In this document: piece by piece, positions 5,224-32,109 of the stretch
Position numbering within the stretch: position 1 is the stretch's first letter
Layout of the letters: every line of letters starts with the position of its first letter
Assembly: GCA_017540085.1 (NCBI GenBank)
Contig: JAFYBQ010000040.1
Span: forward strand, 1-36,112
Length of the DNA stretch: 36,112 nt
Direction of reading: 5' to 3'
DNA from: Synergistaceae bacterium
GTDB taxonomy: Bacteria > Synergistota > Synergistia > Synergistales > Aminobacteriaceae
Translations under genes and position numbers: made by a program
The notes under the pieces: generated by a model
The model's input: the letters and a program-made list of their open reading frames with translations, nothing else
Told to the model about the DNA's origin: nothing
Databases searched by the model: none

Positions 5224-6378
5224 TATTACGCCGTTTTTTGATAAAGGGCTGGAATGTTGACACAGAGTCGCCGATTCCTGACGAGGCAGGCGGATTCTAT
5301 TTCGGGTGCTACTCAGGAGACGCGAACGCAGAGCCGACATCAGCAAGCAAAGAAAGCACCGTATACCACTGGAACAGCACAAAGAAATTATCACAGATCA
5401 GCGTGAAGAACGCGCAGACTACAGCGGATATTGTCATCAAATCCGGAGATCACAAGGGAAGCATTGTAGCGTTTTTAGCGTCAAATCCTGTCCATGTTAT
5501 CAATCAGGAATATGATTACACCCTCACCACATACATATGGAACGGCGTTAGCGGTGTGATTACCACAGTGGGCGAAGGATTCGGCGTTGAGCTGGAAAAA
5601 CCATTCACGGACGGCCATGACGGAATATATTTCATGATGGAGACTGTATTTGTGTCTGATGACTTTGACTCGCTCTGCCACTGGAACAACGCAAGCGGCT
5701 ACAAGATTTTGCAGTCTTCACCGATGGAGCTTGAAGTTGAAGCCCCTCCCTCTGACGGCAATAACGGCTTCTATTATGTTACGTCAAGCATTTACAACAC
5801 ACCCGCGAGACAGAGAGCGCAGAGCGTTGATGTTGGCATGTTAGGCGTAAACATGAGGCTGTATCACTGCATTGACTGGAACACGTCGCCTGACCTCGTG
5901 TGTAATCTGGGATCGTTTGACGTTCCTGCGTCCGCATACGCCAACACGAGCGGGGATTACATGCTTGTGCGCGAGAATGTACAGAGCGAGCACGGATTCC
6001 TTGAGGACTTAGAGCACAATATTCTTTTTGTCGGAGCAGGGCCTATAGGCGGAAATATGACCCTAAAGGCGTTCACGTGGAATGCGTCAACAAAAACGCG
6101 CCTCACGTCCCAGCACCTTATACGGTCATTCAGCGACAAAGAGCTTGGCGGATATACTGATATTGTTACGGCTGTGCTGTTCACTGACCGCGAAATCGGC
6201 GGCGTTGGCAGTTCAGGCGGGTGCAATGGCGGAATGTTCGGTGTGATTGGCCTGGCATTGTCGGCGGTGTTCGTCTTCAGGAAGAAATAGCGCGTTCATT
6301 CACGGAATATTACGGGGCGGCAGGGAGTGTGTGTTTCCTTGTCGCCTCAATTTTTACTGAAGGGAAAATTCAGACTGC

Positions 6379-8262: not shown

Positions 8263-8297
8263 CCTCCTGATTCAAAATTTAGTCAGGAGGTTTTTTT
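8263..8297 (+). terminator. terminator whose 3' arm is the next gene's Shine-Dalgarno
   Basis: CCTCCTGA (8263-8270) pairs with TCAGGAGG (8283-8290) and is followed by seven T. It would end transcription from the Ro-like gene. The 3' arm is also the AGGAGG ribosome-binding site of the subtilase at 8302. Confidence 0.75.
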
Positions 8298-15775: not shown

Positions 15776-15811
15776 TTCCCCTGTCAGAAAACGGCGGGGG
15801 AATTTTTTTTT
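15776..15811 (+). terminator. rho-independent terminator of second subtilase
   Basis: TTCCCCTGTC (15776-15785) pairs with GGCGGGGGAA (15793-15802, two G-U pairs), loop AGAAAAC, then nine T. It is independent of the downstream ribosome-binding site. Confidence 0.85.
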
Positions 15812-19503: not shown

Positions 19504-19515
19504 GCGGATAAAATT

Positions 19516-19548
19516 TCCCCTGTGCTTTTGTGGTACGGGGGATTTTTT
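19516..19548 (+). terminator. terminator of third subtilase, with alternative pairing
   Basis: TCCCCTGT (19516-19523) pairs with ACGGGGGA (19535-19542), followed by six T. The same 5' arm, as TTTCCCC plus TGTG (19514-19524), can instead pair with CACA and GGGGAAA at 19565-19578, which contain the next gene's SD. The two folds exclude each other. Confidence 0.8.
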
Positions 19549-19582
19549 GTGCCGATAAAATTAACACAGGAGGGGAAAAATC

Positions 19583-19939
19583 ATGAAGGTTTTGCGGATA
19601 TTGATTGCGTTATGTCTGATTGTCCCGGCGTTTTCGGCATTTGGCGCGGAAACAAAAAGGGGGGAAGTTCTCGCGGTGCTGAAGACTCCTGCAGGAATGA
19701 CTCTGACAGAAGAGAGCCTGAAGGGGGGCAGGATACGGAAATATATCGACATCACAGCCGACTCAGCCGGAGGAAAAACAGCAAGTATATTTGACGCGCT
19801 GACTCTCACGAACAAGGACGGCTATATATTCGTGTTCATAGTGTCGGACAGCAAGACATCAGAACAGCTTGCCTCAGACCTGAAATCAGATCCCAATGTA
19901 GTATCAGCATCCCCGAACAGGCAGCTTCATATGAATTAG
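19583..19939 (+). CDS. free-standing subtilase propeptide (I9-like inhibitor), secreted
   Basis: The 118-residue protein has a signal peptide (MKVLRILIALCLIVPAFSAF, cleavage near residue 22) and otherwise consists only of an I9-type propeptide. It aligns by eye with the propeptides of the three upstream subtilases: GEVLAVLKTPAGM versus GDVIVVLRNTSGV, SIFDALT versus TFDALSE, and DPNVVSASPNR versus NPNVIAASLNR. No protease domain follows; a tRNA promoter begins ten bases after the stop. Subtilase propeptides are chaperones and tight inhibitors, so this could restrain or help fold the neighbouring proteases in trans. It could also be a remnant of a fourth paralogue. AGGAGGGG precedes the ATG by seven bases. 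Confidence 0.75.
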   Translation: MKVLRILIALCLIVPAFSAFGAETKRGEVLAVLKTPAGMTLTEESLKGGRIRKYIDITADSAGGKTASIFDALTLTNKDGYIFVFIVSDSKTSEQLASDLKSDPNVVSASPNRQLHMN

Positions 19940-19992: not shown

Positions 19993-20068
19993 GCCGGTGT
20001 AGCTCAGCTGGCAGAGCAACTGACTTGTAATCAGTAGGTCGGAGGTTCAAATCCCCTCGCCGGCTCCA
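19993..20068 (+). tRNA. tRNA-Thr(TGT)
   Basis: Complete cloverleaf with acceptor GCCGGTG/CGCCGGC, anticodon loop CTTGTAA (TGT) and T-arm GAGGTTCAAATCCCCTC. CCA is encoded. First gene of the plus-strand cluster. Confidence 0.95.
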
Positions 20069-20081
20069 GTAAGTAACAAAA

Positions 20082-20164
20082 GGCGGAATGGCCGAGTGGT
20101 CAATGGCAACAGACTGTAAATCTGTCGACGGGAGTCTACCATGGTTCGAACCCATGTTCCGCCA
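20082..20164 (+). tRNA. tRNA-Tyr(GTA)
   Basis: Class II tRNA with a long variable arm. Anticodon loop CTGTAAA (GTA), acceptor GGCGGAA/TTCCGCC, discriminator A. The next bases are TCA, so CCA is not encoded and must be added. Confidence 0.94.
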
Positions 20165-20178
20165 TCAAACAGCGAGAG

Positions 20179-20251
20179 GCCGATTTAGCTCAGCCGGCAG
20201 AGCACATCCATGGTAAGGATGGGGTCTTCGGTTCAAATCCGAAAATCGGCT
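20179..20251 (+). tRNA. tRNA-Thr(GGT)
   Basis: Acceptor GCCGATT/AATCGGC, anticodon loop ATGGTAA (GGT), T-loop TTCAAAT. CCA is not encoded. With the TGT isoacceptor two genes upstream it covers the A- and pyrimidine-ending Thr codons. Confidence 0.95.
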
Positions 20252-20281
20252 TGTTCTCAGGAATATAACAGCTTCGGGGTG

Positions 20282-30914: not shown

Positions 30915-32109
<1,195 letters not shown>

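Follow-up and report, generated by a model that had tools for sequence, protein, structure and literature searches.

PMC6993865 describes several subtilase inhibitors that mimic a propeptide and stand alone. These are POIA1, yeast IB2, Arabidopsis SPI-1, TgMIC5 and SUB1-ProM, and the gene of the last adjoins three subtilase-like genes in Plasmodium (PMC6993865). The last six residues affect the inhibitory strength of both YIB2 and POIA1 (PMC10580911). As far as these sources go, lone mimics have been described from fungi, plants and apicomplexans; the ones reported here belong to one bacterial order, in which they occupy several phylogenetic positions and lie beside the enzymes that they resemble. 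When a limited open-access literature was searched by title or abstract, no paper on a lone subtilase propeptide from a bacterium came up.

The gene P0001 lies on the forward strand at positions 19583-19939 of the window (the whole stretch of 36,112 nucleotides that was analysed) and encodes 118 amino acids, from an ATG at 19583 to a stop codon at 19937-19939. A signal-peptide-like N-terminus (residues 1-22, 19583-19648, assigned by eye; residues 2-21 are helical in the predicted model) is followed by one subtilase-propeptide domain (19655-19915), a short tail, NRQLHMN (19916-19936), and the stop. With a Shine-Dalgarno sequence, aggagggg, recognised by eye at 19568-19575, the free-standing product with its own ribosome-binding site and clean stop that the first-pass annotation had described was confirmed, its coordinates being exact. 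The absence of a protease remnant behind the gene was confirmed as well: a tblastn search of the 1661 bases 3' of the stop with the three neighbouring proteases gave a best E-value of 0.20, which is at chance level.

Upstream of P0001, and on the same strand, are three tandem subtilases of 1210-1248 amino acids, P0002 (8296-12042), P0003 (12112-15762) and P0004 (15871-19503), each of which carries its own propeptide (at approximately 15871-16215 in P0004), a Peptidase_S8 domain, Ig-like repeats and a Synerg-CTERM-like tail. The tails of P0002 and P0003 score below the cut-off of the Synerg-CTERM model, and that of P0004, which gave no match to the model, was read by eye. The third subtilase ends 79 bases before P0001. 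Directly 3' of P0001 is a conserved anchor, the trio tRNA-Thr(tgt), tRNA-Tyr(gta) and tRNA-Thr(ggt) (19993-20252, forward strand). Other genes of the window include one for a 350-residue protein upstream of the array (5238-6290), with a Synerg-CTERM match just under the cut-off (E 0.00081) and no Pfam family. An EcoRI-type adenine methyltransferase (PF13651; 2036-3295, reverse strand), encoded a few kb upstream, possibly marks a restriction-modification neighbourhood, and a single 376-residue ORF (30918-32045, reverse strand) joins an RpiB/LacAB isomerase domain to a uracil phosphoribosyltransferase domain.

The relationship of P0001 to propeptides was recognised with a profile whose only input was 17 embedded subtilase propeptides and which matched the mature protein (residues 23-118, signal peptide removed) with an E-value of 1.1e-15, the best of 500 shuffles reaching 0.77. 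In pairwise blastp searches, mature P0001 was 27.6-29.0% identical to two of the three propeptides of the window (P0002, E 2.4e-06; P0003, E 3.7e-05). The P0004 propeptide was not matched by blastp and was found in the genome search with P0001 (E 1.7e-9, 29% identity). At its curated cut-off, the Pfam model Inhibitor_I9 (PF05922) matched neither P0001 nor anything else in its whole genome, nor any of 21 lone members of the family. Fervidolysin_NPro-like (PF22148), also used at its curated cut-off, did not match P0001 either; it gave weak matches in 5 of the 21 lone members (best E 0.0078) and 19.9 bits for P0004, against a cut-off of 21. Pfam and NCBIfam searches assigned P0001 to no family, and PDB sequence searches returned nothing relevant and no homologue. 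Because the Inhibitor_I9 model does not recognise the domain, the earlier label "I9-like" stands by virtue of homology to the neighbouring propeptides and of the predicted fold. As for what marks an I9-type lone inhibitor in MEROPS, the P0001 family consists of separate, conserved propeptide genes without a catalytic domain, and propeptide homology or fold is given by the profile match; subtilisin prosegments rank first for the predicted fold, but with only a middling Z-score. A third mark, a C-terminal tail fit for product-like binding at S4-S1, has mixed indications, with 8 of 14 orthologues ending at the P1 equivalent and 6 running past it.

Some match to P0001 was obtained in 40 of the 43 genus genomes searched, mostly to embedded propeptides. 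Close orthologues with 57-82% identity, referred to here as type A, stand alone at 14 loci in 13 genomes, window included (13 loci in 12 other genomes). At 12 of these loci, the gene is immediately preceded by a subtilase ORF or a contig-cut end of one (at 2-121 bases in 11 and at 439 in one); conservation beside subtilases in relatives was the check that the first-pass annotation had suggested. That annotation had named a full-length fourth subtilase in relatives as the sign of a deletion remnant; it was looked for and is absent from all 13 other loci, at none of which does the ORF continue into a protease or S8 domain. Pairwise dN/dS values were 0.10-0.17 at dS of 0.5-1.3 for the 15 pairs that six orthologues form; four orthologous pairs of full-length proteases had higher values, 0.24-0.37. 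Judging from these ratios, the P0001 orthologues evolve under strong purifying selection.

It could be argued that P0001 is what a deletion left of a fourth subtilase, as it follows three tandem subtilases and begins with a similar signal peptide and propeptide start, and one lone copy elsewhere in the genus (L060 in genome G024), which nests among embedded propeptides (97/96, a starred branch), may be such a truncation. This origin is nevertheless highly improbable for P0001, given the lone genes of 12 other genomes, the lack of a following S8 domain at any of the 13 loci, the low dN/dS and the position of the 14 orthologues in a tree of 100 propeptide domains, where they form one clade (96/100, also starred) apart from the embedded propeptides. 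A subtilase remnant or pseudogene was accordingly rejected, as far as sequence can show: there is no relaxed selection, no catalytic debris downstream and no full-length orthologue. Since relatives keep the lone gene too, P0001 is probably a secreted brake on the proteases of the array rather than the debris of a lost one, in what is a rumen-type bacterium. The named records of five related loci bear the titles uncultured Fretibacterium, Synergistaceae or Synergistales, and goat or reindeer is the source of three.

The existence of a genuine, free-standing gene is therefore upheld by the 14 loci and the low dN/dS, with one exception. In genome G002 (L054, G002:C26, 1-3264), a fifteenth orthologue is joined, without a break in the reading frame, to the C-terminal end of the protease encoded upstream, and because of this fusion the orthologue is not lone in all relatives. 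The junction lies right after the hydrophobic tail of the protease, and the signal-peptide-like segment of the propeptide protein is kept inside. The fusion could be natural or an assembly error.

AlphaFold predicted the structure of P0001 with a mean pLDDT of 87.8. Re-alignment of 998 PDB chains to the model placed three subtilisin prosegments on top, i.e. 1spb_P (Z 8.4, which is barely above the background of 7-8 stated for the tool), 1scj_B (Z 8.1) and 3cnq_P (Z 8.0), with ribosomal protein S6 behind them (Z 6.9). A plain Foldseek search with the model gave no match at E <= 0.001 and listed ribosomal S6 and other ferredoxin-like folds. The alignment with 1spb_P comprises 69 residues (rmsd 3.4), and as residues 26-118 of the model cover residues 7-77 of the chain, the last residue of P0001 falls at the end of the processed BPN' prosegment, with residue 118 aligned to Tyr77, the P1 residue of autoprocessing. 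The chain ends exactly at the P1 equivalent in 8 of the 14 orthologues (with a terminal Tyr or Phe in 6 of those 8) and extends 1-4 residues beyond it, often with basic residues, in the other 6. The window copy ends in Asn, which is atypical as a subtilisin P1 residue. In 13 of the 14, V, L, M or A occupies the P4 equivalent. We aligned the helix-capping pair of BPN', Glu69 and Asp71 (PMC6993865), with two invariant residues of A1, Ser110 and Asn112; both this S-x-N motif and the aliphatic P4 equivalent are retained among type-A orthologues. The modelled tail, P4 and capping features are those that would be expected of a product-like inhibitor; the overruns, the terminal Asn and the near-background Z-score count against it.

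The first-pass annotation had left the choice between a trans-acting inhibitor and a folding helper. The propeptides of mesophilic bacterial subtilases are chaperones as well as inhibitors (PMC10580911), one fold would serve both roles, and co-localisation with the proteases also fits an intermolecular chaperone that would fold or refold these very large subtilases during export. However, an embedded propeptide is present in the same frame in all 22 S8 genes of five genomes (each of which has one lone copy besides), and so none lacks a chaperone of its own; moreover, a chaperone needs no chain end at the P1 equivalent, and yet 8 of the 14 orthologues have one. Because of these two observations the inhibitor is favoured and the helper, though the next candidate, appears unlikely. 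The reading that we prefer, and hold with fair confidence, is that P0001 is secreted and inhibits, in a product-like manner, the surface subtilases encoded next to it.

Lone propeptides are not confined to the type-A clade. Among 34 short frames (< ~210 aa) of the genus, 28 are complete lone propeptide ORFs, found in 25 of the 43 genomes, and six (G037:C48, G012:C355, G014:C13, the second frame of G042:C15, G002:C9 and G032:C22) were set aside after reading as cut or broken subtilases. The non-type-A genes L055-L060, L085, L086, L088-L090 and L092 lie upstream of, between or after subtilases, which they sometimes overlap (the neighbour of L090, presumed to be a subtilase, is truncated in its propeptide because the contig stops there); no S8 gene was found in the 8 kb fetched around L084. 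At the L056 locus (G006:C38, 5532-6259), two near-identical lone genes are arranged in tandem; the start of a subtilase gene overlaps the second of them, and two more subtilases follow. In other genera of the family, L095 and L105-L108 are located beside subtilases, and no S8 gene was found in the stretches fetched for L096, L104 and L109. Among the best 150 matches listed was also a lone copy from another family of the order (L140 in G107), 13 bases after a subtilase. The L104 protein (G079:C14, 6206-6670) has a C-terminal tail (Gly-Cys, hydrophobic and basic) that, by eye, resembles a surface sorting signal; the tail has no match to the NCBIfam model, and the protein is possibly a surface-tethered version.

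The tree mentioned above was built from 36 lone and 64 embedded, cut or fused domains over 117 columns (a 77-residue fragment in L107 and the copy L140 are not included). The lone state changes 9 times on it, and at least 6 of these changes are forced by starred branches; the number of origins is approximate, because the columns are few and some branches are long, and some of the changes could be losses or back-fusions. On the same 117 columns, with some long branches, a single origin of all lone copies was rejected (p-AU 8.7e-07). Genomes with a long subtilase frame (>= 1150 aa) have a lone gene in 12 of 14 cases, versus 13 of 29 for genomes without such a frame (Fisher one-sided p 0.011, uncorrected for kinship and with a length cut chosen after inspection). 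Close contact between the two kinds of gene, which abut or overlap in L050, L053, L055, L056 and L059, would suit an obligate two-gene zymogen, in which the lone protein serves in trans as the propeptide of one subtilase whose own is poor. As a recognisable propeptide is kept in each of the 22 S8 genes of five genomes, such an arrangement is scarcely credible. A propeptide-less subtilase that might be a client of P0001 was likewise found nowhere among those 22 genes and was rejected.

The tRNA trio has some match in 42 of the 43 genus genomes, and the lone gene is located just upstream of it, whole or to the contig limit, at 10 of the 14 type-A loci and at the fused G002 locus. In G026 (L047), the lone gene is kept at the tRNA site, with no subtilase similarity in the 9.7 kb that precede it or the 9.9 kb that follow, and in G004 (L046) there is no S8 gene beside it, the upstream stretch being only 1.9 kb. 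Subtilases are encoded elsewhere in both genomes (four in G026). In G032, G038 and G023, the contig that carries the pair of subtilase and lone gene is not the one with the tRNA trio. The same is true of the second copy in G004, and joint movement of the two genes is suggested by these cases. The tRNA Thr/Tyr/Thr locus may be an integration hotspot that hosts the array in some genomes of the genus, the array contig being a different one in others.

The six lone genes with no S8 gene beside them in the stretches fetched (L046, L047, L084, L096, L104 and L109) would be accounted for if the secreted propeptide-domain protein had been recruited elsewhere, e.g. as an adaptor, a decoy substrate or a partner of a non-protease surface protein, and had lost inhibition; tails that vary among the orthologues, and the hydrophobic, basic, sorting-signal-like one of L104, point the same way. 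We regard this as rather doubtful, given that the two orphan type-A genomes (G026 and G004) do have subtilases at other sites and that the S-x-N motif and the aliphatic P4 equivalent have been kept.

A strong terminator-like hairpin with a T run (TCCCC...GGGGGA, then T6), unmentioned in the first-pass annotation, lies between P0004 and P0001 on the forward strand (19516-19542; -28.9 kcal/mol, z -4.5, with none of 200 shuffles as low), and similar hairpins are located before the first protease (8263-8290) and between the second and the third (15776-15802). Such a structure, with folds read by eye, precedes 11 of the 14 orthologues, among them both of those that have no protease beside them; the 120 bases folded for L052 showed none, and in L050 and L053 the protease and the lone gene are 2 bases apart. 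No promoter-like site was found in 19504-19582. The hairpin argues against simple co-transcription of the protease and P0001, which would therefore be expressed by partial read-through or from an unrecognised promoter. Partial read-through would set the dose of P0001 below that of the protease.

If P0001 is an inhibitor, it would be exported and then pack the face of its beta-sheet on the two parallel helices of a mature subtilase, with the C-terminal tail lying in subsites S4-S1 like a cleavage product, and one or more of the neighbouring subtilases would in this way be inhibited in trans. The propeptide of a protease is made 1:1 with it and then destroyed, whereas the dose of a brake encoded by a separate gene could be set independently, and from the gene arrangement such a separately dosed brake would be the simplest use of an extra propeptide copy. 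One use of it might be to hold the proteases inactive on their way through the periplasm; another might be to restrict damage close to the cell surface, to which they are presumably attached by their Synerg-CTERM-like tails. If this is true, the family would provide a small panel of matched inhibitors for bacterial subtilases, and it would suggest how gut and rumen bacteria that ferment amino acids cope with their own protease coat. How the intramolecular chaperone of a protease turns into an independent inhibitor also becomes testable, with closely related pairs (embedded versus lone) at the same locus and in one order.

Streptococcal Spi is a bacterial propeptide-like inhibitor encoded next to its protease; unlike the proposed targets of P0001, that protease is a papain-fold cysteine protease, and fold and family are different. 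POIA1 of Pleurotus, yeast IB2 (Pbi2) and Arabidopsis SPI-1, the I9 lone inhibitors of MEROPS, consist of a single propeptide-like domain that acts in trans, as proposed for P0001, but they are eukaryotic, and the P0001 family is unmatched by the Inhibitor_I9 model. Toxoplasma TgMIC5 differs in being eukaryotic, unrelated in sequence and a regulator of a known target. Myxococcus PopD is bacterial and forms complexes with the subtilisin-like protease PopC, which it restrains; in contrast to the role suggested for P0001, it blocks PopC secretion and is degraded on starvation, and the source, as far as consulted, states no propeptide relationship (PMC6434023). Like P0001, Plasmodium SUB1-ProM (PF3D7_0507400) is a small, lone and secreted protein that resembles a propeptide; its gene lies next to subtilase genes in tandem, synteny is genus-wide, and the fold is that of a propeptide (PMC6993865). 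It is, however, eukaryotic, has 153 residues and was shown to be a selective inhibitor of SUB1, whereas P0001 is a bacterial protein of 118 residues, a putative inhibitor, and comes from lineages that freed the propeptide more than once. By analogy, the best reading is that P0001 works like POIA1, yeast IB2, TgMIC5 and SUB1-ProM; the molecule would then be of a known kind, and what seems to be new is that it recurs, and is clustered, in a bacterial order. With somewhat better than even confidence, we propose that Synergistales have repeatedly cut the propeptide from their surface subtilases and retained it as a separate, secreted brake with a dosage of its own, a cluster-encoded bacterial counterpart of the apicomplexan and fungal mimics, which would have had several origins in one order and whose array and inhibitor would move together between chromosomal sites.
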